NCBI RefSeq assembly: GCF_014084045.1
Contig: NZ_CP043732.1
Span: 186,001 to 250,000 of the forward strand
Origin: Microbacterium esteraromaticum
Lineage (GTDB): Bacteria; Actinomycetota; Actinomycetes; Actinomycetales; Microbacteriaceae
Length of the DNA: 64,000 nt
Direction of reading: 5' to 3'
Below are positions 1 through 15,627 of the stretch, piece after piece (position 1 is the stretch's first letter; each line of letters starts with the position of its first letter). The notes below the pieces were generated by a model, which saw only the letters and a list, made by a program, of their open reading frames with translations, was not told the origin of the DNA and did no database searches. Position numbers and translations under genes: made by a program.

Positions 1-183
1 CTGGTCCCCGGAGCGACCAGCGCCGGCAGAACCCGCTCGCTCACGCAGATCACCGATGAGCACCGAGTGATCCTCAGCGGCATCGCATCAGGCGACCCGG
101 ATCAGGCCGCTGAGGCCATGCGCGTGCATCTGCAGAACACCGCCGAGAATCTCATCTCGCAGGAAGAGGACGCCGAGCGCTGA
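1..183 (+). CDS. GntR-family transcriptional regulator, FCD-domain C-terminus (partial)
   Basis: Only the last 60 residues are in the window; the start and DNA-binding domain lie upstream. The segment TDEHRVILSGIASGDPDQA followed by EAMRVHLQNT matches the final helices of the FCD effector domain of FadR-type GntR regulators, where a conserved His precedes an ILxAIxxGD stretch. These proteins usually sense small organic acids and repress catabolic operons. It lies 22 bp upstream of the pgl/F420 operon on the same strand, so it is the best local candidate for the protein that binds the paired CATG operators at 9767 and 14563. That regulatory link is inference. Confidence 0.8.
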   Translation: MVPGATSAGRTRSLTQITDEHRVILSGIASGDPDQAAEAMRVHLQNTAENLISQEEDAER

Positions 184-205
184 CGCCGGCCGAGCAGGAG
201 GTAGC

Positions 206-925
206 ATGCCCGAATACGTGGAACTGACCGATTCCGCCGCGGTCGCAGACGACGCCGCGATGCGCACAGTGACAGCGCTGCGGGACGCGATCGCGGAGCG
301 AGGGAGCGCGACGTGGGTGCTGGCCGGCGGCTCCTCCCCCGCCGCCGCGTACCGGATCATCGCCGCCGAGCATTCGGACGCGCTCGACTGGGCGCGCGTG
401 AGTGTTCTCATGGGCGACGAGCGAGTCGTCCCTCACGACCATGCCGATTCGAACTGGGGCCAGTTGAGCCCGCTCCTCACGGCGAGCCCTCGCGTCGGGG
501 CGATCCACGGGATCGCTCCCGATACGTCACTCGATCCGCAGTCGTCCGCGACCGAGTACGGCCGACGCATCGAGGCGCAGCTCCAGCCGCTGCGATTCGA
601 CGTCGTCTGGCTCGGGGTGGGTGAAGACGGCCATACCCTGTCACTGTTCCCCGGGCAGGAACCCGTCTGGAACTCGCCCTCACTGGTCACCGCCGTGACC
701 GACTCCCCGAAGCCGCCAGCCGAGCGCATCACGCTGACCCTCGCAGCGCTCGACCATGCGCAAATGGTCCTCGTCTTCGCCACCGGCGCGGGCAAGCGCG
801 ATGCACTGAGTCGCGCTCGAGCGGGAGAAGACCTGCCGATCGCGGTCGCCTCGGCACGCGCCGAGGCCGCCGGCGCGCGCGTCGCCTGGCTGTACGACGA
901 TGATGCCCGTGACCGCCGGCGCTGA
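206..925 (+). CDS. pgl: 6-phosphogluconolactonase (DevB/Pgl family)
   Basis: 239 aa, the usual length for this family. It hydrolyses 6-phosphogluconolactone to 6-phosphogluconate in the cytosol. Conserved blocks are visible: AGGSSPAAAYRII near residue 40, GDERVVPHDHADSN near 70, and GVGEDGHTLSLFPG near 140. A strong GGAGG ribosome-binding site precedes the ATG. The gene overlaps the next one by 26 bp and is co-directional with an F420-dependent oxidoreductase and cofE, not with zwf or opcA as in a pentose-phosphate operon. In this setting it probably clears the lactone made by the F420-dependent glucose-6-phosphate dehydrogenase at 14.6 kb. The family call is firm; the dedicated role is inference. 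Confidence 0.9.
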   Translation: MPEYVELTDSAAVADDAAMRTVTALRDAIAERGSATWVLAGGSSPAAAYRIIAAEHSDALDWARVSVLMGDERVVPHDHADSNWGQLSPLLTASPRVGAIHGIAPDTSLDPQSSATEYGRRIEAQLQPLRFDVVWLGVGEDGHTLSLFPGQEPVWNSPSLVTAVTDSPKPPAERITLTLAALDHAQMVLVFATGAGKRDALSRARAGEDLPIAVASARAEAAGARVAWLYDDDARDRRR

Positions 926-1913
926 GATCACCATCGGCTTCGCGCCGATGCTCCAGCAGTTCCGTCCGGACGACGCGATCCGTCACTCCGTGGAAGCGGC
1001 TGAGTCGGGGTTCGGAGGGATCGTCCTGAGCGACCACTTCCAGCCGTGGCTGCCGCAGCAGGGCAACGCGTCGTACATGTGGAGCGTGATGGGAGCCCTC
1101 GGGCAGCAGGTCTCGGTTCCCCTGCTGGGCGTGACGACCCCCGGTTACCGCAGTCACCCTGCCGTGACCGCCCAAGCAGCCGCGACGATCGCCGTGCTGT
1201 ACCCCGGACGCTTTCAGCTTGGACTCGGATCGGGCCAGTCGCTGAACGAGCACATCGTCGGAGAGTACTGGCCGCCAGCGAACGAACGAGTCGAGCGACT
1301 GTTCGAGTCGGTCGAGCTCGTGCGAAAGCTGCTCGGCTCCACCAGACGAGATGTCAGACACGACGGCGAGCACTTCCGTCTCGAGCCGGCGCGACTCTGG
1401 ACACTGCCGGACGAGCCGCCTCCCGTCGTCGTGGCGACGTCTGGCCCGGTGGCCGCGCGAAGGGCCGGCCGCGTCGCCGATGGCATCATCACGGTGCAGA
1501 GTCCGCCCGACCGGCTGCAGTTGATGCTGGACCGTTTCGAGACCGGGGTCGCGGAGTCGGCGACCTCGGGCCCGAAGCGGCGGATGATCCAGCTCCACGT
1601 CTCCTGGGCCCACACCCGCGACCTCGCCCTCGAGCATGCGAGGGAGGAGTGGGCCCACGGCGGTCTGCGCTTCCCGACCGCGGACATCCGCTCTCCCTAC
1701 GATTTCGCCATGATGACCAAGCATGTGGAGGACGCGGATCTCGCCGACCGCATGCTGATCTCATCCGAGCCCGAAGAGCATCGCGAGCACATCCAGCGCT
1801 ACGTGGATCTCGGGTTCGATCATGTGTACGTCCACAACGTAGGCCGCAACCAATCGGAGTTCATCCAGATGTACGCCACCCATGTGCTTCCCGAGATCGG
1901 CCGTCGCCGATGA
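900..1913 (+). CDS. F420-dependent LLM-class oxidoreductase, glucose-6-phosphate dehydrogenase-like subfamily
   Basis: 337 aa TIM-barrel protein of the bacterial luciferase-like family. It keeps the F420-site signature SDHFQPW (His46, Trp50) shared with the F420-dependent glucose-6-phosphate dehydrogenase Fgd. Two Fgd features are missing: the catalytic Glu of the GTGEALNE loop is Gln113 (GSGQSLNE), and the phosphate-binding Lys of the TSGKG loop is absent (TVQSPPD instead). It should therefore bind F420 but act on something other than glucose 6-phosphate, either reducing a pathway intermediate with F420H2 or oxidising one. Start choice: ATG at 900, with ATG 903 and GTG 909 also possible. It overlaps pgl upstream and cofE downstream (ATGA), so the three are probably translationally coupled. 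Confidence 0.85.
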
Positions 1914-2680
1914 TCACCGTCTGGCCGCTGCAGGGCATCCCGGAAGTCCGAGCGGGAGACGACCTGGTCGAGCTGGTACTGGCGGCAGCCGGCGGCTCCC
2001 TGCAGGATGGCGACATCCTCGTCGTCACCTCGAAGATCGTCTCGAAGGCAGAGGGACGCATCGTTGCGGCGGTGGATCGCGAGGACGCCATCACATCCGA
2101 GACGGTGCGCGTCGTGGCGACCAGGCCCCGCGCTGACGGGACGAGCACGCGCATCGTGGAGAACCGGCTCGGCATCGTCGGAGCCGCCGCCGGCGTGGAT
2201 GCCAGCAACGTCGCCGAGGGGACGATCCTGCTTCTCCCGATCGACCCCGATGCGTCGGCGCGATCGTTGGCAGAGGGCATCCGCCGTCACGGCCCCACGG
2301 TCGGTGTCCTTCTCAGCGACACCCTCGGCCGACCGTGGCGGGACGGACAGACCGACATCGCCATCGGCGCCGCTGGGGTCCGCGTCTTCGACGACATAAG
2401 GGGAACGACCGACACAGCGGGAAAGCAGCTGGTCGTCACCCTCCCCTGCCTGGCTGATGAACTCTGCGCAGCCGCAGATCTCGTCAAGGGGAAGACCAGC
2501 GGCTGCCCGGTGGCCGTCGTCCGCGGGCGCCCCGATGTCGTCGGCCCGCTGGATCTGCCCGGCGCACGCAGCATCGTGCGCTCGTCCGACGACGACCTGT
2601 TCCGCCTCGGGTCCGCCGAAGCCGAGGCTGAAGGATACGCGCGGGGGTTCGCCGCGGGTCGAGCGGCCGCAGGGTCCTGA
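1910..2680 (+). CDS. cofE: Coenzyme F420-0:L-glutamate ligase (CofE/FbiB N-terminal type)
   Basis: 256 aa. CofE adds gamma-linked glutamates to F420-0 using GTP, giving the retained polyglutamate forms of the cofactor. Family hallmarks are visible: [16 protein letters not shown] near residue 35, [15 protein letters not shown] near 135, and the ending [17 protein letters not shown]. It is a stand-alone ligase without the C-terminal nitroreductase-like domain of mycobacterial FbiB. Its ATG overlaps the TGA of the preceding LLM gene. The other F420 biosynthesis genes (fbiA, fbiC, fbiD) are not in this window, so this could be an extra copy dedicated to the cluster. A hairpin terminator follows at 2710. 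Confidence 0.88.
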
Positions 2681-2709
2681 TACCGGCAGATGCAGACCGC
2701 GGAACGGAT

Positions 2710-2742
2710 GAGGGACCGGAGCGAAGCCGCCGCCGGTCCCTC
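2710..2742. terminator. Bidirectional hairpin terminator between convergent operons
   Basis: Ten-bp perfect inverted repeat GAGGGACCGG/CCGGTCCCTC with a 13-nt loop, in the 80-bp gap where the cofE operon (+) and the FAD-oxidoreductase operon (-) converge. There is no long T tract, which is common in high-GC actinobacteria. Confidence 0.75.
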
Positions 2743-2760
2743 GTCCTTCCCGTCGGGGTG

Positions 2761-4059
2761 TCAGAGATGGGCGTGCGCCTGAATCGGACCCTCGTCGAAC
2801 CTCGACACCCGGAAGTCGGCTATGTCGATCGACGGTGCTCGATCCGTGGCCAGCTCCGCGGCGACCTTGGCGACGCCGGGACCGATGCCGAACCCGTGGC
2901 TGCTGAGGCCCGTAGCGAGGATCAGCCCCTCGATCCGGGGAACAGCGGAAATCACGGGCAGCGCATCGGGTGTGACGTCGACGGTGCCGCCCCACATCCG
3001 CGCGATACGCGACCCGCGCCATTCCGGCACCAACGACATGAGGTTCCGGTGCGCCATCTCGATCTTCCGGCGGTTGGCCGGTGGATCATCCATCCGTCGC
3101 CAGTCGAACAGCGCCGCGCCCCGTGTCGCCCCGGTGAGGCGTCTTCCGAGATCCTGGAACGCCACCTCGTTGAGGTGAAGCTGGATCATCTTCCGGTTCC
3201 TGAAGAAGTTCGGCAGGAACAGACGGAGGTCACCAAGCGTGTCGATCGCGAGATCGTAGTCGCTCCAGGCGGCGCTGCCGAAGATCACCGAGCCGTCGGA
3301 TGTCTGGCTGAACCCCACGGACGGGACGTGCACGGCCAGGTCGGTGACATGGGCCACCGGATTGGTCCTGGCAGCAGTAGCGCGGATCCAGCGGACGGGT
3401 ATCTTCACGCCGAGGGGCCGCGTCAGCCTTCCCGACCACGCACCGGCCGCAACGATGACGCGCGCCGCGTGCCGAGGTCCGGCTGTCGTGTCGACACCGG
3501 TCACTCGACCTGCCGAGACACGGATGCCCGTCACCGTCACACCGGTCTCGATCGTGACGCCTCTTCGGGCCGCCGCAGCCGCGATCTCTCGAGTTGCGAC
3601 GCCCGGATCGGCGTGGCCGTCGGTCGGCGTCATCAATCCGCCTGCCCACTCGCCGGTCAGCGAAGGCAGGAGCGAGCGCACGTCCTCGGGGCTCAGCAGC
3701 TCGGTTCCGAACGCCTGGTCTGCGCGGGTCTCGCGCATCCACCCCCGATACTTGTCGAGGTTCTCCTGGTCCGGCGAGAGGTAGACCAGGCCGGACTTCA
3801 CGACAGTCGAGGACGCGCCGATGTCATCGCGGATGTCGTCCCAGATCTTCGATGACATCGCCGCGAGGGGCATCTCAGAGATGTCACACCCCTGACGGCG
3901 GATGAACCCCCAGTTCCTGCTCGACTGCAGGTCCGATACGGGACCCTTGTCGATCAGACGCACTGAATGGCCTTCGGCCGCCAGATCATAGGCGGCGGTG
4001 ACCCCGACGATCCCCGCGCCGACGATGATCACGTCGGCGCCGGACTGCGACCCGTTCAT
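2761..4059 (-). CDS. FAD-dependent oxidoreductase, DAO (D-amino acid/glycine oxidase) family
   Basis: 432 aa. The N-terminal Rossmann motif is VIIVGAGIVGVTAAYDLA at residues 10-27, with an acidic residue closing the second strand (RLIDKG). The C-terminus has the family's FAD-closing GLILATGLSSHGFGIGPG. Members oxidise the C-N bond of amino acids, sarcosine or similar amines, or 2-hydroxyacids. The start was set at ATG 4059, which has GGAGG eight bases upstream; an open frame continues further upstream but without a better site. It is the last gene of the seven-gene minus-strand operon, 37 bp after the DJ-1 gene. The substrate is unknown; an amine or hydroxyacid arising in this pathway is the likely target. 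Confidence 0.82.
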   Translation of the reverse strand: MNGSQSGADVIIVGAGIVGVTAAYDLAAEGHSVRLIDKGPVSDLQSSRNWGFIRRQGCDISEMPLAAMSSKIWDDIRDDIGASSTVVKSGLVYLSPDQENLDKYRGWMRETRADQAFGTELLSPEDVRSLLPSLTGEWAGGLMTPTDGHADPGVATREIAAAAARRGVTIETGVTVTGIRVSAGRVTGVDTTAGPRHAARVIVAAGAWSGRLTRPLGVKIPVRWIRATAARTNPVAHVTDLAVHVPSVGFSQTSDGSVIFGSAAWSDYDLAIDTLGDLRLFLPNFFRNRKMIQLHLNEVAFQDLGRRLTGATRGAALFDWRRMDDPPANRRKIEMAHRNLMSLVPEWRGSRIARMWGGTVDVTPDALPVISAVPRIEGLILATGLSSHGFGIGPGVAKVAAELATDRAPSIDIADFRVSRFDEGPIQAHAHL

Positions 4060-4096
4060 GGACGCCTCCTTCCCGGAATGTGCTTCTGCGGAGAGG

Positions 4097-4636
4097 TCAA
4101 GACGACTTCGCCGCCGCGAGCGCCGCGATGATCGGGGGCATGAAGGATGGGAGATCGTCCGGGATCCGGGAGGTGATGATGTTGCCGTCCACCACCACCG
4201 CCTCGTCGACGAACGTCCCGCCGGCGCCCTCGATGTCATCGCGGATGGAGAAGTAGCAGGCGATGTTGCGACCACGCACGAGGCGGGCTGAGGTGAGGGC
4301 CCAGGCGCCGTGGCAGATCGCTCCGACGGGCTTGCCCGCTTCCCCGATCTCTCGGATGAAATCGATCATCGGAGGCTTGCGGCGCATGTAGTCCGGCGAG
4401 AACCCGCCCGGGACGATCACTCCGTCGAACTGATCGGCGGTGACATCGTCGATCGAGACATCCGCCTTGACAGGCATGCCGAGCTTGCCCTTGAAGGTCT
4501 CCTGCCGTCCGCTGCCGACGATGGTGACCTCTGCGCCCTCCTCGATCAGGCGGTAGTACGGATACCACAGCTCCGAATCCTCGTAGAGGTCCTCCGCGAG
4601 AATGGCCACGCGGACTCCGCTGAGTGTGTTGCTCAT
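4097..4636 (-). CDS. DJ-1/PfpI family protein (type 1 glutamine amidotransferase-like)
   Basis: 179 aa, typical for the PfpI/YhbO branch. The nucleophile elbow GAICHGAW places the reactive cysteine at Cys108 with His109 beside it, and the family acid is Glu15 (AILAEDLYED). Members have been described as cysteine proteases, glyoxalase III-type enzymes or protein deglycases acting on reactive dicarbonyls. A role in removing reactive aldehydes or ketoaldehydes would fit a pathway with several oxidoreductases. Its ATG overlaps the TGA of the preceding dehydrogenase gene (4633-4636), so it is translationally coupled to it. Confidence 0.85.
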   Translation of the reverse strand: MSNTLSGVRVAILAEDLYEDSELWYPYYRLIEEGAEVTIVGSGRQETFKGKLGMPVKADVSIDDVTADQFDGVIVPGGFSPDYMRRKPPMIDFIREIGEAGKPVGAICHGAWALTSARLVRGRNIACYFSIRDDIEGAGGTFVDEAVVVDGNIITSRIPDDLPSFMPPIIAALAAAKSS

Positions 4637-5688
4637 GATTCGTTCCTTTCTGTATGTCCTCCTGAGTCGGCCCGTGCGAGCAGGCCTGCTTCCCAGGGCG
4701 GCGGGTGTGGGCTGTTGACGACGTCGCGCGGCTTTCGACCGTTCATGACGTCGACCACTGCGTCAGTGGCGTGCGCGACCATGTCGACGATCGCCTCACG
4801 GGAGAGACCGCCGATGTGCGGGGTGAGAACGGTCGATCTCGTCAGTCCGAGCAGTGGGCTGTGCACGGGAGGTTCCTCGCTGAAGACGTCGAGTCCTGCA
4901 CCCGTGATGCGCCCCTCGCGCAAGGCCTCCGAGAGCACCGCCTCGTCGACGACCCCGCCGCGTGAGGTGTTGATGAGGATCGCTCCCGGCCGCATCCGAG
5001 CGATCTCATCCCGCCCGATGCATCCGCGGGTCTCCGGTGTGAGCGGCAGATGAAGCGAGAGGATGTCTGCCCCGCTGATCACCTCGTCGAAGTCAGCAGC
5101 CCTGACGGCGGGCGGGGGCACGGCGTACGGGTCGTACCCGATGATCTGCACTCCGAATCCCGCAAGCCGCTCGGCCACCAGGCGTGCGATGCGACCGAGG
5201 CCGAGAAGGCCGACCGTCTTGCCGTGCAGGTCGCTGCCGAGCCAGGGTTCCGTACGGCGCCACTCCTCGTGTCGCACGGAGGCGTCCATCGCCGGGATCT
5301 TGCGCAGCACTGCCAGCATGAGCCCGATCGTATGGTCGGCCACGGCCTCTTCATTCGTGCCGCGCGCTATCGCCACGGCGACACCGTGCTCCTCGGCCGC
5401 CTTCAGATCTATCGAATCGCTGCCCACGCCGACACGGCTGATCACGCGCATCTCCGGAACCGCTTCGAAGAACTCCCGCGGAAACGGATCTGTGCTCACG
5501 ATGGCCGCCTCACAGCCCCGGGCCAGGCGGATCACCTCGTCGACGGAGCGGTCGCGCAGCCTCGGCGCGCGGCGCAGCTCCAATCCGACCTCCTGCAGAC
5601 GCCGTACTTCCGGAGAGTCCTCCCCGGGGAAGTCCACCCACGTGACGAGGACGGTTCGGGGGGCCGCTGACTCGGAAGAAGCGCTCAT
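4633..5688 (-). CDS. NAD-dependent D-2-hydroxyacid dehydrogenase (phosphoglycerate dehydrogenase-like)
   Basis: 351 aa. It has the NAD-binding motif GLLGLGRIARLVAERL, the catalytic Arg context TSRGGVVDE, and LTPHIGG carrying the catalytic His. These enzymes interconvert 2-keto acids and D-2-hydroxyacids. The start ATG at 5688 overlaps the TGA of the upstream ThDP-enzyme gene (5685-5687), and its own stop overlaps the DJ-1 start. It shares only family-level similarity with the second dehydrogenase at 7388, so the operon carries two different enzymes of this type, perhaps for successive intermediates. The substrate cannot be assigned. Confidence 0.87.
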   Translation of the reverse strand: MSASSESAAPRTVLVTWVDFPGEDSPEVRRLQEVGLELRRAPRLRDRSVDEVIRLARGCEAAIVSTDPFPREFFEAVPEMRVISRVGVGSDSIDLKAAEEHGVAVAIARGTNEEAVADHTIGLMLAVLRKIPAMDASVRHEEWRRTEPWLGSDLHGKTVGLLGLGRIARLVAERLAGFGVQIIGYDPYAVPPPAVRAADFDEVISGADILSLHLPLTPETRGCIGRDEIARMRPGAILINTSRGGVVDEAVLSEALREGRITGAGLDVFSEEPPVHSPLLGLTRSTVLTPHIGGLSREAIVDMVAHATDAVVDVMNGRKPRDVVNSPHPPPWEAGLLARADSGGHTERNES

Positions 5689-7322
5689 GACCACGCCCCG
5701 ATCTGCGAGGGCGACGTGTGCACCTGGATCACGGCAGGACGTCCGGCCGCAAGAGCGCTGCGCAGCGCAGGAAGGAACTCCTCGTTGGTGCGCACACGAT
5801 GCGCCGCTGCCCCCATGCCCTCGGCGACGGCGATGAGATCCATGCTCGCCTGGTCGACGCCGATCTCACGCCCGGGAAAGACCCGGGTCTGATGTGCCCG
5901 GATGGTGCCGTACGTGGCGTTGTCGAACACGAGGAACACAAGGCGATCGAGGCCGAGACGCACGGCCGTGTGCACCTCGCTCATCGTCATGGCGAAGCCG
6001 CCATCGCCGGCTACGGCGAGGACGCGCCGTGCAGGGTCGGCGAACTTCGCACCGATCGCAGACGGAACGGCATAGCCCATCGACCCCGACGTCGTGCCGA
6101 GGAAGGTCTTCGGCCTCTCCCAGCGGTAGTAGCGGTTGAGGTAGCTGGCGAAGGCGCCCGCATCGGAGGTGATCACCGCGTCGCCAGACAGCTCCTTCCG
6201 CAGCTCAGCGATGGCACGCGGAATGTCGAAGTCATCGCCGGTGGCCGATTCCGGCTCAGTGGATGCGACATACGCGAGATGCGCACGACGAGCGGACTGC
6301 CTCCGCCCGTCGAGCACCTCGGATGCCAACGGCGCATCGCGGAGAGCTGCGAGCAGTCGAGCCACCGTGTCTCCCGCATCTCCCACGATGGGCAGATCCG
6401 GGTTCCGCACCGGCGACATCGACTCGGCGCTCAGGTCGATCTGCACGAACCGCTGCCCTGCTCCTGGCACGGTGTACCCGAGGCTGGAGAAGTCTCCCAT
6501 CCTGGTGCCGATGCCGATGACGAGGTCCGCACGTCTCAGTGGCGCCAGAAGCTCCTCCGGCAGCCATGGCAGGTTGCCCGCGAACTGGGCGTGCCCATTC
6601 GGGAAGGCATCGAATCGGCGCCATCCGCAGTACACCACGGCGCCGCTCGCCTCCGCGAGGGCGATGAGGTCTTCGCGCATACGTTCATCGCCGCAGCCTC
6701 CCCCGATCACGAACGCCGGCGCGTCCGCCGAACGAAGCAGGTCCACAGCCTCGGCCACGTCCGAGTCGGATGCGGCCGGTCGCGGCACGCGCTGTCGAGC
6801 GACCTCCACGGTCTCCGTGGTGTCGTAGCCGACATCCTCTGGAAGGCTCACCACGACCGGGCCCGGTCTGCCGGCGCGGGCGAGGTAGAACGCTCGCTGG
6901 ATCTGCTCCGCTGCGCGGTCGCCCTCTGTGATCTTCACGGCACCCTTGCCGATGAGATCTCCGAGAGCGAGGAGATCCATCTCCTGGAAGCTCTCTCTGC
7001 CCTCGTCCTCCTTGGGCACCTGGCCGACCAACAGCACGAGGGGTGTCGAGTCCTGTCGTGCGGCGTGAAGGGCGATCGCCGCATGGGTGACGCCGGGCCC
7101 TCTCGTCACCATGAAGACGCCGGGCAGTCCTCGAGTTCGGGCCCACGCGTCCGCCATGAATCCCGCACCCTCCTCATGGTGGGTGGTGACGAGGGTGATC
7201 CCCGGCACGTCGTTGAACGCATCGAGCACGGGCAGGTAACTCTCCCCCGGCACGCAGAAGACATGGTCCACGCCTTCTGCGCGGATCGCCTCCACGATGA
7301 TCCGGCCTACGGTCATACTCAT
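5685..7322 (-). CDS. Thiamine diphosphate-dependent enzyme, acetolactate synthase/2-ketoacid decarboxylase-like
   Basis: 545 aa with the three-domain layout of the POX/AHAS family. The catalytic Glu lies in the HHEEGAGFMADAW region near residue 50. The ThDP-Mg motif starts at GDGGFAM and ends about 27 residues later at FDNATYG. There is no adjacent small regulatory subunit (ilvN), and it is not part of a branched-chain amino acid operon. A catabolic lyase or decarboxylase that cleaves or condenses a 2-keto acid is therefore more likely than acetolactate synthase itself. The start is ATG 7322, with ATG 7316 also possible. It sits between two 2-hydroxyacid dehydrogenases, consistent with chemistry on a 2-keto/2-hydroxy acid. 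Confidence 0.85.
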   Translation of the reverse strand: MSMTVGRIIVEAIRAEGVDHVFCVPGESYLPVLDAFNDVPGITLVTTHHEEGAGFMADAWARTRGLPGVFMVTRGPGVTHAAIALHAARQDSTPLVLLVGQVPKEDEGRESFQEMDLLALGDLIGKGAVKITEGDRAAEQIQRAFYLARAGRPGPVVVSLPEDVGYDTTETVEVARQRVPRPAASDSDVAEAVDLLRSADAPAFVIGGGCGDERMREDLIALAEASGAVVYCGWRRFDAFPNGHAQFAGNLPWLPEELLAPLRRADLVIGIGTRMGDFSSLGYTVPGAGQRFVQIDLSAESMSPVRNPDLPIVGDAGDTVARLLAALRDAPLASEVLDGRRQSARRAHLAYVASTEPESATGDDFDIPRAIAELRKELSGDAVITSDAGAFASYLNRYYRWERPKTFLGTTSGSMGYAVPSAIGAKFADPARRVLAVAGDGGFAMTMSEVHTAVRLGLDRLVFLVFDNATYGTIRAHQTRVFPGREIGVDQASMDLIAVAEGMGAAAHRVRTNEEFLPALRSALAAGRPAVIQVHTSPSQIGAWS

Positions 7323-7387: not shown

Positions 7388-8380
7388 TCAGGTGTCAAGG
7401 GGCGCGTAGCCCATTTCGAGGTCCACGATGTTGCGCAGGGGCTCGCCCTCCGTCCATCGACGGAGGTTCTCCACGAAGAGGTCGACCATCGCGTCCTCCC
7501 AGCCCTGGAAGTCCGAGGAGATGTGCGGCGTCAGGATGACGTTCGGCATGTCCCAGAGTTCATGCTCGGGCGCGAGGGGTTCCTTCGGCACGACGTCGAG
7601 TGCCGCACCGCGTATGAGTCCGGAGCGAAGCGCATCGAGCAGAGCGTCCTCTCGGATGACAGGTCCCCTGCCCACGTTCACGAGCACAGCATCGGTCGGC
7701 ATGGCGGCGAACTCGGCGCTGCCGAACATGCCCGCCGTCTGCTCGGTCAGCGGCGTCGCGAGCATGACATAGTCCGCAGTCGCGAGCACCTCATGCAGGT
7801 CGTCCTGGACGACGACCCGATCGAAGTGCTCCACAGGTGCGACTCGGGCGCGTCGTCCGACTCCGGTGACGGACATCCCGAGCGCGTGCGCTCTGCGAGC
7901 CAGCTGGCGGCTGACCTCACCCATGCCGACGATCACGAGACGTGCTCCGGAGAGCATCCTCGTCTCGACCGGTCGCCAGACGCGGGCCGTCTTGTCCGCG
8001 CCGAAGCGAGGCAGCTCCTTGGCGAAGGCGAGCATGAAAGACAGCGCGAACTCCGCCATCGACTCCGCGGTCACCCCACGCGAGTTGGTGAAGCGGATGC
8101 CCCGGTCGCGCACCTCGTCGGAGAGCGAGGCGTCGACGCCGACGGCCGCCACATGCACCCAGCGCAGTGCGGAGAGTCTCCGCGCTGCATCGGGCACGAC
8201 CGTGGAGCGGAAGTTCCACACGAACACCGCTTCGGCATCCTCCCACTCCGCGGTGATCTCGCTCGCGTCGGTGACGAAGCCCAGTTCCGCGAGCCCGTCC
8301 ACCTTGTCCCTCAGGCCCGGCGGCTCCGCCCCGGAGGGGCGGAGCGCAACCAGGATCTTCGGGCGTCGAGCGTCGCTCAC
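7388..8380 (-). CDS. NAD(P)-dependent D-2-hydroxyacid dehydrogenase (second copy)
   Basis: 330 aa. The nucleotide-binding motif is IVGMGEVSRQLARRA, followed by NVGRGPVIRED and LTPHISSDFQGWED with the catalytic His. The sequence resembles the glyoxylate/hydroxypyruvate reductase branch. The start was set at GTG 8380, which overlaps the TGA of the upstream LLM gene as GTGA; an ATG at 8455 would bury the start deep inside that gene. A 65-bp gap separates it from the ThDP gene. It is distinct from the dehydrogenase at 4633. Confidence 0.85.
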   Translation of the reverse strand: MSDARRPKILVALRPSGAEPPGLRDKVDGLAELGFVTDASEITAEWEDAEAVFVWNFRSTVVPDAARRLSALRWVHVAAVGVDASLSDEVRDRGIRFTNSRGVTAESMAEFALSFMLAFAKELPRFGADKTARVWRPVETRMLSGARLVIVGMGEVSRQLARRAHALGMSVTGVGRRARVAPVEHFDRVVVQDDLHEVLATADYVMLATPLTEQTAGMFGSAEFAAMPTDAVLVNVGRGPVIREDALLDALRSGLIRGAALDVVPKEPLAPEHELWDMPNVILTPHISSDFQGWEDAMVDLFVENLRRWTEGEPLRNIVDLEMGYAPLDT

Positions 8381-9405
8381 TTCGCCGCGGCGAGCGGGAC
8401 GACTTCCTTGGCGAAGCGCGTCATGTGCTCGATGCCGAATTTCGAGTCCTCCCACCCGTGCAGGTAGAAGTCCAGGACGAGGTGGTCCACTCCCGCGTCC
8501 AGGTTCTCGCGGAGACGCTTGGCAGCCTGCTCCGCGGAGCCGATCATCAACCGCTCCTCGGGGCGGTTGAGCGTCGGGTCGTCGATGCGGGTCAGCGCCT
8601 CATCGAAGGTGATTCCGTTGATGCGCGCGAGCAGGCGCGGAAGCGCCCAATCCTTCATCCAGGCCTCATCGTCGCTGATCATGCCGTAGTTCACGGCTGC
8701 CAGCTCAAGGGGGGTCGTGCGGCCGAACTCCTCGTCCTTGGCGCGCAGAGTCGGCAGCAGCTCGTTCTTGATCTCGTCGGGAGTCGGGAAGAGCGGGTAG
8801 AACGCATCCGCCCACTTGGCGGTCCGGTTGAGGGACTTCTCCCCGCCACCGACCCACATCGGCAGCCGCTGCTGCACGGGCTTCGGAGTGATCTCAAGCC
8901 CGGTGGAGTCCCAGATCCGACCGGCTTCCGTGATGTCCTCGCCGTTCCACAGCTGACGGAAGGTCGACATCGCCTCGTCCATCCGGCGGCCGCGCTCGGT
9001 GGTCTTGACCATGCCGACCGAGAAGTCCTCGTCCCACCAGCCCAGCACGGGAACAGCCACGGCGCGCCCGTTCGAGGCGTTGTCGAGCGTCGAGAAGTAC
9101 TGCGCCCAGACGAAGGGATGCAGCGTCGGCGCGACGAACTCGAACGCGACCTTGATGCGCTTCGTCTCGCGCGCGATGATGGGCATCAGCACCAGGGGAT
9201 CGAACAGGTATCGGGTGCCGAAGGCCGCGAAGCTCGCCGTCTTGGGCATGGTGAAGTGCCACGGCACGTGGATGGCTTCGAATCCCAGCTCCTCCGCCTT
9301 CTGCGCGAACTCCACCATGGAGTCGATGGTCGGGCCGTCGGCGCCCCACGGGAAGAGGTACACCCTCAGCTTCTTGAGGATCTCCTCGACGCTGTCATCT
9401 GCCAT
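8377..9405 (-). CDS. LLM-class flavin- or F420-dependent oxidoreductase
   Basis: 342 aa luciferase-like TIM barrel. Visible family features are PTIDSMVEFAQKAEELGFEA at the N-terminus, TLHPFVWAQYFSTLDNASNG in the middle, and the active-site segment LPMWVGGGEKSLNRTAKWAD. It lacks the SDHFQPW signature of the Fgd-like group, so it belongs to a different branch from the protein at 900. It may be an FMNH2-dependent monooxygenase or an F420H2-dependent reductase, and the sequence alone does not decide. A good AAAGGA site precedes ATG 9405. It is the second gene of the tautomerase-led operon and a candidate for the step that attacks the substrate. Confidence 0.83.
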   Translation of the reverse strand: MADDSVEEILKKLRVYLFPWGADGPTIDSMVEFAQKAEELGFEAIHVPWHFTMPKTASFAAFGTRYLFDPLVLMPIIARETKRIKVAFEFVAPTLHPFVWAQYFSTLDNASNGRAVAVPVLGWWDEDFSVGMVKTTERGRRMDEAMSTFRQLWNGEDITEAGRIWDSTGLEITPKPVQQRLPMWVGGGEKSLNRTAKWADAFYPLFPTPDEIKNELLPTLRAKDEEFGRTTPLELAAVNYGMISDDEAWMKDWALPRLLARINGITFDEALTRIDDPTLNRPEERLMIGSAEQAAKRLRENLDAGVDHLVLDFYLHGWEDSKFGIEHMTRFAKEVVPLAAAK

Positions 9406-9493
9406 TTCTCGTCCTTTCTCGTTCTCTGTCCCGCCTCGCCTCGTGCGCTGCGGGCTCGTCTCTCAGCGCCTGCCGCCATGGCAGGCGGCTCGG

Positions 9494-9691
9494 TCAGTCG
9501 TCGGGCAGGTTGAGGTGCTTGTGGAAGGTGGTCCCGTGCGTGCCCCACATCTTGGGGCTGTGCTCCACCAGCAGGACCTGGACGTTCTCCAGGCGCGCGC
9601 CATTGGCGACCATGACATCTGTGATGCCGGCGATGATCGCCTCCCGCTGGTCCTGACTCCGACTTGCGATATCAACGCGTACGAATGCCAC
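9494..9691 (-). CDS. 4-oxalocrotonate tautomerase-like small protein lacking Pro1
   Basis: 65 aa, the size of a 4-OT subunit, with the typical amphipathic helix EAIIAGITDVMVANG and a LENVQVLLVEHSP strand. The start is GTG 9691, preceded by AGAGG eight bases upstream, and there is no other in-frame start nearby. The second codon is GCA, so the mature protein begins Ala-Phe-Val where catalytic family members begin with Pro1. Without the N-terminal proline the usual acid-base tautomerase chemistry should be lost, so it may catalyse something else or play a structural role. It is the first gene after the operator at 9767 and leads the seven-gene operon. Confidence 0.75.
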   Translation of the reverse strand: MAFVRVDIASRSQDQREAIIAGITDVMVANGARLENVQVLLVEHSPKMWGTHGTTFHKHLNLPDD

Positions 9692-9766
9692 TGATCGTGC
9701 CTCTCTTCCTTGAGCCTCACGGTCCGAACCGCCTGATTCGAACCAGCCACCTCATTCGGTGACATC

Positions 9767-9784
9767 TAACATGTTACATGCAAG
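9767..9784. promoter_or_regulatory. Candidate operator, CATG-N3-CATG type, upstream of the tautomerase operon
   Basis: TAACATGTTACATGCAAG: a perfect 10-bp palindrome (TAACATGTTA) overlapped by a second CATG-centred half 7 bp away. It lies 75 bp upstream of the GTG at 9691. The same 18-bp arrangement, 14 of 18 bases identical and with the same 7-bp centre-to-centre step, occurs at 14563-14580. The candidate regulator is the FCD-type GntR protein at the left edge. Confidence 0.6.
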
Positions 9785-9820
9785 TCCTGTGGAAGGGAAG
9801 GTTCCATGCGTCCGAAGTAG

Positions 9821-12643
9821 TCACTTCTCCGCGCCGCCGACCAGCAGCTCGGCCAGGGTCCTCCCCTGCACATCGGCCAGCTGCTCGGCCTGAGTCCGGC
9901 AGGAGAAACCGTCTGCGAGGAACACGCTCTCGGTGCCCCCCGCGCGCAGCGCAGGCAGCAGCGCGAGCTCCGCCACAGCCACGGAGGTCTCATAATGCCC
10001 CTGCTCCATCCCGAAGTTGCCCGCCATTCCGCAGCATCCCTCGAGCTCCTGCACCTCGGCTCCACTGCGCGCGAGCAGGCGGCGATCCGCCTCGAACCCG
10101 ATCACCGCGTGGTGATGGCAGTGCGGCTGCACGATGAGGGTGAGATCGCTCAGATCGGGCGGGGACCAGCCCGGAGTCCGCTCGAGCAGCTCCGCCAGCG
10201 TCACGGTCGCAGCCGCCACGCTGCGCGCACGCGAGTCCTCGGGCAGCAGCTCACCCAGATCGCTGCGCAGTACGGCCGTGCATGACGGCTCGACACCTAC
10301 GATCGGCACGCCGTCAAGCGCGTATGGGGCGAGCCCGTCCACGAGCTGACGCAATCGCCGCCGCGCGCCGTCGAGCTGGCCCGTGCTGATCCACGTCAGA
10401 CCGCAGCACAGCTCTCCCCGGGGCACGATGACCGTGTAACCCGCGTCGTGGAGCACGCGGCGCATCGCTACGACGGACGCGGGCCGGAAGGCCGCGCTGA
10501 ACGAATCGCCCCAGAGGACCACTCGCCGCTCGTCGCCCGGCTGCGCCCCGGCGTCGCCCGGCTGCGCCCCGGTGTCGCGCAGGGCGCGCCGCGCGGCGCG
10601 GGACGCGAAAGCAGGAACGCCGCGGCGAGGGTCGATCCCGCCCGCGCGAAGAAGGGCTCGTCGCAGCGGGGCCACCTTCATCACGGCGTTCACGACACCC
10701 GGTGCGATACCCGCCAGCCGCGCCCAGCGTGGCAGCCAGCCGAGCAGGTAGTGCGCGCGCGGGCGCACGCGGCCACGGTAGCTGCGGTGCAGAACCTCGG
10801 ACTTGTACTGGGCCATGTCGACACCGGCCGGGCATTCGCTCGAACAGGCCTTGCAGCTCAGACAGAGGTCGAGCGCCCCATGCACCTCGGCGGCCCGCCA
10901 CCCGTCTTCGATCAACGAGCCGTTGGCCATCTCCTGCAGTGTGCGGGCTCGGCCACGGGTGACGTCGTTCTCGTCTCCGCTCACCCGGAACGACGGGCAC
11001 ATGAACCCGCCGTCCACAGCGCGGCACTTGCCCACGCCCACGCAGCGATGCACCGCCTGGGTGAAGTCGCCACCGTCGTCCGCGAACGCGAAACCTCCCG
11101 AGCTCAGGAGGGGAAGTGCCGCGGGCCGGCGCAGATCGGCGTCGAGTGGGGCCGGCTCCACGATGATGCCGGGGTTGAGCACGTCATCGGGATCGAGGAG
11201 CGCCTTGAACCGGCCGAGCAGCTCGAGTGCCTCGGCCGAGTACATCTTGGACAGCAGCTCGCCTCGCGCCCGTCCATCCCCGTGCTCGCCGGACAGCGAC
11301 CCTCCGTGCGAGATCACGAGGTCCGCGGCATCGAGCATGAACCGGCGCATCGCATCCGCGTCGGATGCCAGCGGCAGATCCAGGCGCACATGCACGCAGC
11401 CGTCCCCGAAGTGTCCGTATGGCAGACCTTCCACATCATGCCGGGCCATGAGCGCCTCGAAATCGCGCAGATAGGCTCCGAGGCGCGCGGGCGGCACCGC
11501 GGCGTCCTCCCACCCGGGCCATGCTTGGGCACCTGACGGCGTGCGGCCGGCGAGGCCTGCGCCGTCCTCGCGAATCCGCCAGAGCCTCGCCGACTCGGCG
11601 CCGGCAGGCAGGAGTCGTGAGGAGATCGCACCGGCATCCGCGACGAGGGCGCGTGCGGTGGCCAGCGAGTCCTCCTGCGTTGCTCCGCCGACCTCGATGA
11701 GCAGCCAGCCGCCCCCTGCCGGCAGCTCCGGCACGGAGCCGGAGCCGCGATGGCGACGGATCACATCGACCAGCCGCGCGTCGAGTCCCTCGATCGCGAG
11801 CGGGCGATGCGCGAGCAGCGCCGGGACGGCATCCGCGGCCGCCGCCATATCGGGGTACCCGACAACGACGAGCGCAGGAGCGGCGGCGATGGGCACCAGC
11901 CGGATCCTCGCTCCCAGCGTCACGGCGACAGTGCCCTCGGTGCCGACCAGCGCTCGTGCCAATGACGATCCGCGCTCCGGCAGGAGGTGCTCCAGGGAGT
12001 ATCCGCTGACCTGTCGCCCGAAGCGTCCGAACTCCGTCCTCAGCGTGCCCAGGTTCTCCCTCACCAGCCGCGCGAGTCCGGGCACCGGGGCCAGATCGTC
12101 TGCGGCGATGTACCGGCTTCCGCGGCCGTCCACGACATCGAGCTCGACCACGTTGTCAGCGGCGCGCCCGTAGGCCAGCGCGTGCGCCCCGCACGCGTTG
12201 TTGCCAAGCACCCCGCCGATCGTCGCGCGGGTGTGCGTGGACGGATCTGGACCGAAGCGCAGACCGTGGACGCGGGCTTCGTCGTTGATGCGCGACAGCA
12301 CGGCTCCCGGCTCGACGAGTGCGGTGGCACCATCGGCGTCTATCTCCCGCACCCTGTTCAGATGCACCGAGGTATCGACGACGATGCCCGGACCGATCGC
12401 GTTGCCGGCCACAGACGTGCCCGCACCGCGCATCGTGAGAGGAACGCGTCGCCGACGCGCGAGATCGACGACGGCCAGCAGGTCATCGACATCGCGCGGC
12501 GCGACGACCACCTGCGGGGGAACACGGTAGTTGGACGCATCCGAGGAGTACTGGGCCCTTCTGGCAGCGGACGCCCAGACCTCACCTGCGACGGCCGCCG
12601 TCAGCTCATGGGCGAGATCAGCGGCTTCTGCGGCGGGGGTCAT
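9821..12643 (-). CDS. FAD-linked oxidase/Fe-S protein fusion, D-lactate dehydrogenase-like (GlcD-GlcF type)
   Basis: 940 aa. The N-terminal half is a PCMH-type FAD domain (RGAGTSVAGNAIGPGIVVD near residue 75, GVLGNNACGAHAL near 145) plus the FAD-oxidase C-terminal domain (HFGDGCVHVR, SGEHGDGRARG). The second half has Fe-S cysteines, HRCVGVGKC and CLSCKACSSECP, then two CCG-type motifs (ELCCGLTW, EGCCGMAGNFG). This layout is that of respiratory D-lactate or D-2-hydroxyglutarate dehydrogenases, which oxidise D-2-hydroxyacids and pass electrons to the quinone pool. Its ATG overlaps the TGA of the aldehyde dehydrogenase gene. It may use the hydroxyacid formed in this pathway. A 7-residue repeat lies in the linker. 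Confidence 0.88.
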   Translation of the reverse strand: MTPAAEAADLAHELTAAVAGEVWASAARRAQYSSDASNYRVPPQVVVAPRDVDDLLAVVDLARRRRVPLTMRGAGTSVAGNAIGPGIVVDTSVHLNRVREIDADGATALVEPGAVLSRINDEARVHGLRFGPDPSTHTRATIGGVLGNNACGAHALAYGRAADNVVELDVVDGRGSRYIAADDLAPVPGLARLVRENLGTLRTEFGRFGRQVSGYSLEHLLPERGSSLARALVGTEGTVAVTLGARIRLVPIAAAPALVVVGYPDMAAAADAVPALLAHRPLAIEGLDARLVDVIRRHRGSGSVPELPAGGGWLLIEVGGATQEDSLATARALVADAGAISSRLLPAGAESARLWRIREDGAGLAGRTPSGAQAWPGWEDAAVPPARLGAYLRDFEALMARHDVEGLPYGHFGDGCVHVRLDLPLASDADAMRRFMLDAADLVISHGGSLSGEHGDGRARGELLSKMYSAEALELLGRFKALLDPDDVLNPGIIVEPAPLDADLRRPAALPLLSSGGFAFADDGGDFTQAVHRCVGVGKCRAVDGGFMCPSFRVSGDENDVTRGRARTLQEMANGSLIEDGWRAAEVHGALDLCLSCKACSSECPAGVDMAQYKSEVLHRSYRGRVRPRAHYLLGWLPRWARLAGIAPGVVNAVMKVAPLRRALLRAGGIDPRRGVPAFASRAARRALRDTGAQPGDAGAQPGDERRVVLWGDSFSAAFRPASVVAMRRVLHDAGYTVIVPRGELCCGLTWISTGQLDGARRRLRQLVDGLAPYALDGVPIVGVEPSCTAVLRSDLGELLPEDSRARSVAAATVTLAELLERTPGWSPPDLSDLTLIVQPHCHHHAVIGFEADRRLLARSGAEVQELEGCCGMAGNFGMEQGHYETSVAVAELALLPALRAGGTESVFLADGFSCRTQAEQLADVQGRTLAELLVGGAEK
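10531..10572. repeat. In-frame 21-bp tandem duplication in the D-lactate dehydrogenase-like gene
   Basis: Two copies of a 21-bp unit, at 10531-10551 and 10552-10572. They encode the repeated residues GAQPGD in the linker between the Fe-S domain and the CCG domain, where length variation is probably tolerated. Confidence 0.8.
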
Positions 12644-14091
12644 GGCCTGACGTACGCGGTCTTGAGCTGCGTGAAGAACTCCCTGGCATGGGTGCCCTGC
12701 TCCTTCGGTCCGTGACTGGAGCGCTTCCTGCCCCCGAAAGGCACGTGGGGGTCGACTCCAGCCGTGGGAAGGTTCACCATGACCATCCCGGTGTCGGAGC
12801 GGCGCTGGAAGTCGGCGGCGCGTGCGAGCGAGGTGGTGCAGATGCCGGCGACCAGGCCGTACGGCGTGTCGTTGGCGAGCTCGACCGCGTGGTCGTAGTC
12901 CTCAGCGCGCAGCACTCCGGCGACGGGTCCGAACACCTCCTCCCGGTTCAGGGGGGCGGAGGCAGACAGGCCCTCTACGACGGCCGGCCGCAGGAAGTGG
13001 CCCGCCGTGCTCCCCTCCACGAGATCCCCTCCGTGGACGATCGCGTCCGCGTGGGCCCTGGCGCCGTCGATGTACCCGAGATCGATGCGCAGCTGGCCGG
13101 CATCCACCACCGGACCGATCTCCGTGTCCGGATCGAGCGCGTGGCCGACGCGCAGCCGGAGAGCCCGCTCACGGAAAGCGGTGACGAATCGCTCGTAGAC
13201 CGCGTCCATCACGATGATCCTGCTGGACGCCGTGCACCGTTGCCCCGTCGCGAAGAACGCGCCGTCTATGGCGCAGGCGACCGCGATGTCGAGGTCGGCG
13301 TCGTCCGAGACGATCAAGGCGTTCTTGCCCCCGAGTTCGAGCTGCACGGGGCGCAGCGCCGTGGCGCCGGCCTGCGCGATCCCGACACCGACGCTCTCCG
13401 ATCCGGTGAAGGTGACGGCGTCGATGCCCTCGTGCCGGGCGAGCGCGTCGCCGATCAGAGCGCCCGATCCTGTGACGAGGTTGAACACGCCAGGAGGACA
13501 TCCCTCCTCCTCGATGATGCGCGCGAGCGCGGCGGCGCTCGCTGGCACCAGGGCCGCCGGCTTGAGCACGACGGTGTTCCCGTATGCGAGGGCGGGTGCG
13601 CATTTCCACGCCGGGATCGCGATCGGGAAGTTCCATGGGGTGATCACGCCCACCACTCCCAGCGGTTCGCGATGGACGGTGACCGTCACCCCCGGACGCA
13701 CCGAATCCTGGTGGTCTCCGGTGAGCCGCAGCGCCTCCCCGGCGAAGAACCGGAAGATGTGCGCCGCGCGGGTCACCTCGCCCCGAGCTTCATTCCGCGT
13801 CTTGCCCTCCTCGCGCGCGAGGAGCTCGGCGAGGGCGTCAGCATCGGACAGGATGCGGGCGGCGACGCGCTCGAGCAGATCGGCACGCACCGCGGGCGAC
13901 GTGCGGGACCAGCGCGGGAAGGCTTCGCGTGCGGCTTCCACCGCGAGATCGAGCTCGCCGATGCCGGCGATGGCGAACCTGCCGATGACGTCCGATCGAT
14001 CCGATGGGCTGATGTTCTCGCGGTGCTCGGCGGCACTCCTCCATTCACCGCCGATGAGGGTGCCGAATTCAGGCGCGCTCGTGTCGGTCAC
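12640..14091 (-). CDS. NAD(P)-dependent aldehyde dehydrogenase
   Basis: 483 aa, full length for the ALDH superfamily. Key residues are Asn154 in TPWNF, general base Glu252 in QLELGGKN, and nucleophile Cys286 in FFATGQRCTASSR. The cysteine context resembles alpha-ketoglutarate semialdehyde dehydrogenases and vanillin-type dehydrogenases, but the substrate is not settled. The start was set at GTG 14091, which has GGGAGGAGG six bases upstream; the upstream ATG at 14121 has no comparable site. Its stop overlaps the ATG of the FAD/Fe-S gene. In the pathway it would oxidise an aldehyde intermediate to an acid. Confidence 0.9.
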   Translation of the reverse strand: MTDTSAPEFGTLIGGEWRSAAEHRENISPSDRSDVIGRFAIAGIGELDLAVEAAREAFPRWSRTSPAVRADLLERVAARILSDADALAELLAREEGKTRNEARGEVTRAAHIFRFFAGEALRLTGDHQDSVRPGVTVTVHREPLGVVGVITPWNFPIAIPAWKCAPALAYGNTVVLKPAALVPASAAALARIIEEEGCPPGVFNLVTGSGALIGDALARHEGIDAVTFTGSESVGVGIAQAGATALRPVQLELGGKNALIVSDDADLDIAVACAIDGAFFATGQRCTASSRIIVMDAVYERFVTAFRERALRLRVGHALDPDTEIGPVVDAGQLRIDLGYIDGARAHADAIVHGGDLVEGSTAGHFLRPAVVEGLSASAPLNREEVFGPVAGVLRAEDYDHAVELANDTPYGLVAGICTTSLARAADFQRRSDTGMVMVNLPTAGVDPHVPFGGRKRSSHGPKEQGTHAREFFTQLKTAYVRP

Positions 14092-14145
14092 CGCTGACCT
14101 CCTCCCGGTCGCACCCCGCACGCCCGGCCTTCGGGGGGTTCCTTC

Positions 14146-14505
14146 TCATGCCTCATCCGGCTTCTCGATCGCCGTGTACACCTTGCGTACGGGCTGCTCG
14201 ACATACCAGGTGCCGATGTATCCGCTGTGCACATGGAGCACCGCGCCGGGCTCGATGATCGTGGTCGTTCCGTCGGAGTGCTCGATGCGACCAGCTCCGC
14301 TCACGAAGTGCATGAACTCGGAGATCCCCTTCTTCTCCGATCGGAACACTCCTGGCGTGCACTCCCAGATGCCGATCTCGGTGTCACCGTCACGGTGCAG
14401 CACACGCTTGGTGGCCTGCGGGTCGCCCTCCAGGATGATGGGCGGCGCTGCCGACGGGGCCAGGTCCTCGCCAACGACATCCGTCAGGGTGTAGAAGGTG
14501 GTCAT
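14146..14505 (-). CDS. Cupin-domain protein (DUF861/cupin_3-like)
   Basis: 119 aa single-domain cupin. The core is visible as EIGIWECTPGVF, SEFMHFVSGAGRIEHSDG and IIEPGAVLHVHSGYIGTW. The pattern matches small cupins of the (S)-ureidoglycine aminohydrolase/EutQ-like group, which often act as accessory or detoxifying proteins in catabolic clusters. Two adjacent ATG codons follow AGGAG; 14505 gives the better spacing and 14508 is possible. It is the first gene of the cupin-ALDH-FAD/Fe-S operon and is divergent from fgd, sharing its control region. Function unknown. Confidence 0.75.
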   Translation of the reverse strand: MTTFYTLTDVVGEDLAPSAAPPIILEGDPQATKRVLHRDGDTEIGIWECTPGVFRSEKKGISEFMHFVSGAGRIEHSDGTTTIIEPGAVLHVHSGYIGTWYVEQPVRKVYTAIEKPDEA

Positions 14506-14562
14506 CATCGCTCCTCTTCTTTCACGACCGCGTCGACACTCGATTTCACGGCCTTTTACGTG

Positions 14563-14580
14563 TAACATGTAGCATGCTAC
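14563..14580. promoter_or_regulatory. Candidate operator, CATG-N3-CATG type, between the cupin operon and fgd
   Basis: TAACATGTAGCATGCTAC, containing a perfect 12-bp palindrome GTAGCATGCTAC (14569-14580). It ends six bases before the AAAGGA ribosome-binding site of fgd and lies 58 bp upstream of the cupin start, so one site could control both directions. It matches the site at 9767-9784 in sequence and internal spacing. Confidence 0.65.
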
Positions 14581-14595
14581 TTGAGAAAGGACTCA

Positions 14596-15627
14596 ATGCA
14601 AATGGGCAGCACGACACTACGACTCGGCTACAAGGCCTCCGCCGAGCAGTTCGGTCCCCGCGACCTGGTCGACTTCACCGTTCTCGCCGAGGAGATCGGG
14701 CTCGACTCCGCCATGGTCAGCGACCACTTCCAGCCGTGGCGATACAACGGCGGGCACGCCCCGTTCTCGCTGGCCTGGCTCGCCGCAGCCGGCGAGCGCA
14801 CGGAGCGCATCACCCTCGGCACGAGCGTGCTCACGCCGACGTTCCGATACAACCCGGCCGTCATGGCTCAGGCCTTCGCCACATTCGGCTGCCTCTTCCC
14901 CGGTCGCGTCATCCTCGGCGTGGGCACCGGCGAGGCGCTGAACGAGATCGCCACCGGATACGTAGGCGAGTGGCCCGAGTTCAAAGAGCGGTTCGGCCGT
15001 CTGCGCGAGTCGATCGACCTCATGCGCAAGCTCTGGACCGGTGAGCGCGTGGATCACGATGGCACCTACTACCGCACCGTCGGCGCCTCGATCTACGACG
15101 TGCCCGACACGCCGATCCCCGTGTACATCGCCGCGGGCGGTCCTTTCGTCGCTCGCTACGCGGGTCGGCACGGCGACGGTTTCATCTGCACATCCGGGAA
15201 GGGCATGGATCTGTACACGGAGAAGCTCATGCCGGCAGTCGAAGAGGGACGCGCCCAGTCGAGTGACCCGGAACGCACGGTGGACAGGCTGATCGAGATC
15301 AAGCTGTCGTATGACCGGGATCCCGAGACCGCCCGGGAGAACACCCGCTTCTGGGCCCCGCTGTCACTCACGCCCGAGCAGAAGCACAGCATCGACGACC
15401 CCATCGAGATGGAGAAGGCCGCCGATGCGCTGCCCCTTGAGCAGGTCACGAAACGGTGGATCGTCGCCTCGACACCCGAGCAGGTCGTCGAGCAGGTGGC
15501 ACCGTACGTGGAGGCAGGATTCAACCACCTCGTGTTCCACGGCCCCGGCCATGACCAGACTCGCTTTCTGCACCAGTTCCGCGACGACCTCCTGACGCCG
15601 CTGCGCGAACTCGGCGACCGCGCCTGA
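14596..15627 (+). CDS. fgd: F420-dependent glucose-6-phosphate dehydrogenase
   Basis: About 343 aa, with close block-by-block agreement to mycobacterial Fgd1. It oxidises glucose 6-phosphate to 6-phosphogluconolactone and reduces F420 to F420H2. The N-terminal [10 protein letters not shown] is conserved, as is VSDHFQPW (His44 and Trp48, equal to His40 and Trp44 of Fgd1). The GTGEALNE loop carries the catalytic Glu. The phosphate-site elements [14 protein letters not shown] and TKRWIVAS are also present. Start: ATG 14596 or 14602 after AAAGGA at 14586; a TTG at 14581 is less likely. It is monocistronic, ends in a strong terminator, and is divergent from the cupin operon. It is the likely source of reduced F420 for the LLM enzymes of the cluster. 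Confidence 0.95.

Follow-up and report, generated by a model that had tools for sequence, protein, structure and literature searches.

Coenzyme F420 is generally regarded as something that each cell synthesises for its own use. In clusters for the breakdown of nitroaromatics (picrate or 2,4-dinitrophenol), the catabolic genes come with an F420-reducing enzyme of their own, and a putative F420-0 ABC transporter was reportedly first proposed by Selengut and Haft in 2010. The passages of a review also raise the possibility that Paraburkholderia/Mycetohabitans rhizoxinica shares 3PG-F420 with its fungal host via an ABC transporter (PMC8498797). Here we analysed a stretch of 64,000 nucleotides from Microbacterium esteraromaticum (contig NZ_CP043732.1, positions 186,001 to 250,000; hereafter the window), in which F420 genes and catabolic genes lie on one island. 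Taken as a whole, this island is best explained as coupling a catabolic pathway to scavenged coenzyme F420, a reading that we hold with moderate confidence. Like the cassette covered by the NCBIfam models TIGR03868, TIGR03869 and TIGR03873 that occurs with cofE, it carries a putative importer whose substrate-binding protein (SBP; TIGR03868, 447.2 bits, cut-off 392.4) and permease (TIGR03869, 460.2 bits, cut-off 437.35) exceed their cut-offs, with cofE and fgd on the same island. Unlike in that cassette, the parts of the kit here are scattered over 30 kb and alternate with catabolic operons, with which fgd and pgl-LLM1-cofE have an operator-like sequence in common. The island differs from the picrate and 2,4-dinitrophenol clusters in having Fgd where those have an NADPH:F420 reductase, in that its F420 is seemingly imported, and in that no gene of nitroaromatic type was recognised in the gene families detected. 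With the M. rhizoxinica proposal it shares an F420-type cofactor crossing cell borders by an ABC transporter, but there export from a producer is proposed, whereas here a cell that is seemingly unable to make the cofactor would import it, and the transporter genes are different.

The genome searched is a single contig (C1, 3.37 Mb, 99.98% complete). The window edge cuts the island, which begins about 14 kb upstream, and we therefore read a further stretch (L002, C1:170001-187000) to cover the upstream DNA. The island spans about 30 kb (C1:171,995-201,627), its right half being positions 1-15,627 of the window. On the plus strand of the window, pgl, LLM1 (an F420-family luciferase-like oxidoreductase) and cofE have overlapping ends, and the canonical fgd stands far to the right. 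Between cofE and fgd, the minus strand carries genes for a cupin, an aldehyde dehydrogenase (ALDH) and a D-lactate dehydrogenase (D-LDH)-like protein, followed by tautomerase, a second luciferase-like oxidoreductase (LLM2), 2-hydroxyacid dehydrogenase (2HADH), a thiamine diphosphate (ThDP)-dependent enzyme, another 2HADH, PfpI and DAO. F420 genes thus alternate with catabolic operons across the island, and within each operon genes overlap or lie at most about 90 bases apart. Every gene type named by a first-pass annotation of the window was found there with Pfam and NCBIfam profiles.

This cell very probably depends on F420 from outside. Three profile models run genome-wide gave no match for cofC, cofD or cofH (cofG was not searched), and the cell is therefore probably unable to make F420. 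As a positive control, the cofD model was run on 37 genomes, all chosen by having cofE: this one and those of 37 of 58 named cofE loci, less L038. It matched 35 of them, at 300-376 bits; the two without a cofD match were this genome and Okibacterium sp. HSC-33S16 (L032/G328). The retention of cofE where those three genes were not found is the gene pattern of the group in which the importer occurs with cofE. Since CofE is present in a cell that probably cannot make the cofactor, what arrives would be F420-0 or short-tailed F420. As to further copies, cofE occurs once in the whole genome and fgd has one place over the TIGR03554 cut-off, with six weaker LLM matches elsewhere, while the pgl-family domain has three places, one of which (C1:3117454-3118122) outscores the island pgl. 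The F420 genes of the island would form a salvage kit for import, tailing (CofE) and reduction (Fgd). The first-pass annotation had linked these genes with the catabolic genes, which stands, and had proposed that the pathway brings its own reducing supply, which does not: with cofC, cofD and cofH not found and a putative F420-0 importer on the island, that supply would depend on imported cofactor.

By reading the intergenic regions, we found a near-palindrome, ATGTARCATGYTACAT, at three promoter regions of the island, two of them divergent. One site has the promoters of fgd facing those of cupin-ALDH-D-LDH, and another belongs to the operon tautomerase-LLM2-2HADH-ThDP-2HADH-PfpI-DAO (Table 1, sites ii and iii). 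We then scanned the window, L002, 20 control stretches and relatives' loci, allowing up to 3 mismatches. The window of 64 kb gave 3 matches, spread over two promoter regions, compared with 0.06 expected (0 of 100 shuffles reached 3), and L002 gave 1 (6 of 200 shuffles reached 1), figures that describe rarity. The 20 control stretches, which add up to 400 kb of this genome, had none, and a single place, with 3 mismatches, turned up in the relatives' loci (1.97 Mb, with some overlap between loci). The link of fgd, pgl and cofE with the catabolic genes is borne out by this rare sequence, shared between their promoters and those of the catabolic operons, and by their interleaving; co-regulation of the two sets is probable. 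The GntR/FCD protein is a natural candidate reader of the operator-like sequence, because its gene adjoins site i.

We next compared the island with its counterparts in the genus Microbacterium. The importer was over cut-off in 30 of 366 genus genomes, this one included, and 33 were found at E<=1e-90. From 31 of those 33 (all but G578 and this genome) we took 32 importer loci of at most 20 kb each, at least three of which are short or end at a contig edge (L124, L139 and L145). Within the fetched stretches, cofE was found in 24 of the 32 loci, always with fgd, fgd in 27 and cofD in 14. The usual genus form is a compact LLM1-cofE-fgd-(cofC-cofD)-importer block, to which the island genes are similar (LLM1 40-52%, cofE 60-75%, fgd 64-76% and importer SBP 54-67% identical). 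Unlike this compact module, the present genome has no cofC or cofD match, pgl and gntR are added, and about 23 kb of other genes lie inside. To judge by gene order, the same block looks here as if it had been pulled apart and filled with catabolic operons, with pgl added. In the genus genome G485 the importer occurs at two loci (L118 and L134): LLM1-cofE-fgd without cofD accompanies it at one, and fgd-cofC-cofD at the other.

To place the importer in a wider setting, we searched the 37 genomes. TIGR03868 was over cut-off in 14 and cofH matched (E<=1e-20) in 19. cofH was absent from 13 of the 14 importer genomes, while among the 23 without the importer 18 had it and 5 did not (Fisher p = 3e-5, uncorrected for kinship, as 7 of the 14 carriers are Cryobacterium and all 37 have cofE). 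Eleven carriers had cofD without cofH, two had neither (this genome and Okibacterium) and one had both. The last is a metagenome-assembled genome (MAG; G319:C6, L093) whose cofH stretch has 65.7% GC, versus 71.2% for its cofD stretch, and may be contamination. All seven Cryobacterium loci have SBP-permease-ATPase-cofD on one strand, although for five of them the sole ATPase match was to the other ATPase of the island. cofD also lies beside the importer in Agromyces agglutinans, a Naasia MAG and an Actinomycetales MAG; in two further carriers it is 16 kb off or on another contig. A candidate cofC open reading frame (ORF) beside cofE was tried in four carriers and was above cut-off in three (L021, L015 and L008), with no match in L020. 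The importer of this group, among the relatives searched, therefore goes with absence of cofH rather than of cofD, pointing to FO. A cell with cofC, cofD and cofE but without FbiC needs FO, not F420-0, and because the carriers are mostly cofH-less yet cofD-bearing, we propose the importer as a deazaflavin importer whose commonest cargo would be FO.

Importers with and without a linked cofD did not separate into two clades in a tree of 46 SBPs (fewest changes 5), which suggests repeated loss or gain of cofD next to one and the same importer; the tree was a quick one with support often under 95, and "cofD-less" refers to the fetched stretch, except in two genomes searched whole. The chances are about even that the "F420-0 importer" family is a deazaflavin importer usually carrying FO, with FbiC repeatedly given up for import in Microbacteriaceae. 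Most carriers would then finish F420 via cofC, cofD and cofE, some without cofC and cofD would take F420-0, and the island described here would have put finishing and recharging under the pathway's operator. Three Amnibacterium genomes (G312, G322 and G332; L090, L091 and L050), two of them MAGs and G322 recorded as CER49, have cofD but no match to cofH (E<=1e-20) or TIGR03868 (E<=1e-30), and may have another FO source or importer. Agromyces allii (L008) has two cofE matches about 3 kb apart (7027 onward and 10001-10771) with LLM1 between them.

We also assessed the two luciferase-like oxidoreductases as users of F420H2. LLM1, the gene beside pgl, is not canonical Fgd (TIGR03554, 182.3 bits, cut-off 420); that role falls to the gene at 14596 (618 versus 182 bits). 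The closest solved structure to LLM1 is 9hav (336 bits, versus 182 for Mycobacterium tuberculosis FGD1). Because 9hav has 54 chains, as does the Thermomicrobium roseum Fgd according to passages of PMC12750041, we infer that the two are the same. Gln113 of LLM1 aligns with the Glu of the GTGEALNE motif of Fgd, and at this position 45 BLAST hits among the fetched loci (some genomes hit twice) have Glu in 33, Asp in 11 and Asn in 1. We take this Glu to be the catalytic residue in Fgd, and LLM1, with residue 113 changed, may be altered in its reaction. The best NCBIfam model for LLM2 is the F420 subfamily TIGR03619, at 126 bits under its cut-off of 167, and a single-sequence search with LLM2 also brought up the F420 enzymes Mer and Fgd, lower down. 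LLM1 appears to be as good a candidate as LLM2 for the F420H2-using catabolic step, and whether some catabolic step consumes F420H2 at all we judge to be an even call.

Homologues of LLM2 (E<=1e-60) were found in 1 of 299 family genomes and in 2 of 366 genus genomes, both counts including this genome, and the other genus homologue was at 39% identity; matches on plasmids were all below 60% identity (24-29% among the matches listed). Homologues of LLM2, ThDP and GGT were found on equal-sized contigs in Microbacterium sp. NPDC058342 (258,341 bp; 96, 83 and 84% identity), Nakamurella lactea (47,144 bp; 71, 65 and 68%) and a Nostocoides MAG (104,197 bp; 72, 58 and 62%), and those of LLM2 and ThDP on three metagenome contigs of matching size (27,601, 11,791 and 16,927 bp), co-location being read indirectly from identical contig sizes. 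LLM2-ThDP-GGT thus appears to be a catabolic cluster standing on its own, whose members share contigs in other actinobacteria. The hydrolases and the oligopeptide-type importer on the island suggest a peptide- or amide-like substrate. A Pseudonocardia plasmid was rejected as carrying the same cluster: its GGT is 51% identical and S9, FAD-oxidoreductase, LLM and cupin genes are annotated nearby, but it otherwise gave only weak LLM-type matches (28-30%). The position of GGT between importer and cofE had first suggested that it trims the tail of imported F420; this role was ruled out, since its homologues share contig sizes with LLM2 and ThDP, it has no match in the 32 importer loci, and no signal peptide was seen by eye. 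The oligopeptide ABC importer was likewise dropped as an F420 importer once the TIGR03868 cassette was found.

In the mechanism that we propose, the importer would take in F420-0 or tailed F420 and CofE would add glutamates to it. Fgd, and possibly LLM1 too, would reduce F420 using glucose-6-phosphate, and Pgl would remove the lactone. The shared operator would be bound by the FCD-type GntR protein, whose gene heads pgl-LLM1-cofE, and tailing and reduction would thereby be switched on along with the import and degradation of a peptide- or amide-like substrate by the oligopeptide-type ABC importer, GGT, the S9 and M24 hydrolases, DAO, the ThDP enzyme and the dehydrogenases. LLM1 or LLM2 would then spend the F420H2. 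Several observations weigh against this coupling. The importer ATPase scored 309 bits with TIGR03873, its best-scoring model, under the cut-off of 372.4. The promoter of the importer has no operator site, and import may therefore be constitutive; the operator motif was itself derived from the island sites, so the shuffles are not an independent test. No pgl, GGT, ThDP, DAO, D-LDH or 2HADH match was found in the 32 importer loci, and other island genes matched weakly there (LLM2 25-27%, ALDH 35-39%, GntR 30-32%, and ATPase); the F420 kit therefore works without this pathway. The profile hits of LLM2 in PDB are monooxygenases or luciferase-like proteins of FMN type, a label that we presume where the entry itself is silent. 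Base composition gives weak support for a single foreign island, as the mean GC content at third codon positions is 0.83 in the island versus 0.89 in the rest of the window, and 0.83 is also the 25th percentile of genome-wide control ORFs.

In a rival reading, the genus F420-salvage module and an acquired catabolic cluster are interleaved by chance, the F420H2 goes to other enzymes, and the pathway runs on NAD(P), FAD and FMN. Further LLM-like genes elsewhere in the genome and the FMN-type enzymes to which LLM2 aligns best agree with such mere neighbourhood, as does the module found without catabolic genes in the genus. We nevertheless consider it unlikely, given the rare sequence that fgd, pgl-LLM1-cofE and the catabolic operons have in common at their promoters, and a second pgl in this genome that is matched in none of the 32 importer loci. 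Synthesis of F420 by enzymes too diverged for the models, which would make the self-sufficient cluster of the first-pass annotation literally right, is very improbable: absence rests on three profile models, but the same cofD model scores at least 300 bits in relatives of the same family, three separate steps are without a match, and an importer is present. Equally improbable is that CofE and the GGT-like enzyme act on the substrate, through a gamma-glutamylation route, instead of on F420. The Puu pathway for putrescine offers the comparison, with its DAO oxidase, ALDH and gamma-glutamyl hydrolase, and DAO, ALDH, GGT and cupin do stand on one island here. However, CofE is above the F420 equivalog cut-off and 64-74% identical to the CofE of 15 relatives (L003-L017), all with cofD, and 24 of the 32 importer loci have cofE together with fgd but no catabolic genes. 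Coupling of the pathway to scavenged F420 is accordingly the reading that we prefer.

The features of the island are collected in Table 1. A scan for sigma-70 promoters found 1 (1.0 expected), and one for terminators found 1 (3.5 expected).

Table 1. Features of the F420 and catabolic island. Coordinates refer to the window, or to L002 where marked.
Feature	Coordinates	Strand	Remarks
Putative F420-0 ABC transporter cassette, SBP-permease-ATPase	L002:1995-4938	+	roughly 11-14 kb before the window begins
M24 peptidase, S9 peptidase, GGT-like enzyme, oligopeptide-type ABC importer	L002, in that order after the cassette	-	
Oligopeptide-type ABC importer (SBP, two ATPases, two permeases)	L002:9951-15158	-	
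Operator-like site i	L002:15292-15307		between peptide-type importer (-) and gntR-pgl-LLM1-cofE (+)
GntR/FCD regulator	L002:15473-16183	+	stops 22 bases short of pgl; just upstream of the window
pgl, 6-phosphogluconolactonase	206-925	+	TIGR01198 176 bits, cut-off 124
LLM1, F420-family luciferase-like oxidoreductase	900-1913	+	TIGR03557 293 bits, cut-off 210
cofE, F420-0:gamma-glutamyl ligase	1910-2680	+	TIGR01916 226 bits, cut-off 181
DAO-family FAD oxidoreductase	2761-4059	-	PF01266 220 bits
DJ-1/PfpI family protein	4097-4636	-	TIGR01382 above cut-off; absent from the first-pass annotation
D-2-hydroxyacid dehydrogenase 1	4633-5694	-	PF02826/PF00389
ThDP-dependent enzyme	5685-7322	-	nearest NCBIfam PRK08199, 531 bits, just under cut-off 539
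D-2-hydroxyacid dehydrogenase 2	7388 to ~8380	-	longest ORF begins within LLM2, at 8455
LLM2, luciferase-like oxidoreductase of the catabolic operon	8377-9405	-	
4-oxalocrotonate-tautomerase-like protein	9494-9691	-	PF01361
Operator-like site iii, ATCTAACATGTTACAT	9764-9779		upstream of the tautomerase-LLM2-...-DAO operon
FAD/4Fe-4S D-2-hydroxyacid (D-lactate/D-2-hydroxyglutarate) dehydrogenase-like	9821-12643	-	PF02913, PF01565, PF13183, PF02754; NF049975 under cut-off
Aldehyde dehydrogenase (ALDH)	12640-14121	-	PF00171 510 bits
Cupin (EutQ-like)	14146-14508	-	PF05899
Operator-like site ii, two overlapping matches	14560-14582		between cupin (-) and fgd (+)
Canonical fgd	14596-15627	+	TIGR03554 617.7 bits, cut-off 420; 585 bits to PDB 5lxe

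The F420-0 importer family is a known prediction; a set-phrase literature search found no published account either of its fusion with a catabolic regulon or of the FO reading. The same kind of search for F420 salvage, uptake or import, or for an F420-0 transporter, found no report, and the words scaveng-, salvage and uptake do not occur in the passages of the review PMC8498797. These findings suggest that the cell prepares a borrowed vitamin along with the diet that calls for it. The island offers a direct route to testing the cargo of an unproven importer family, and its three promoter regions with one operator are a test case for pathway-linked cofactor supply. If the reading is true, the absence of fbiC alone would be no ground for calling a strain F420-free, some actinobacteria would share F420 or FO as a vitamin, much as with B12, and entire degradation pathways would rely on F420-making neighbours.

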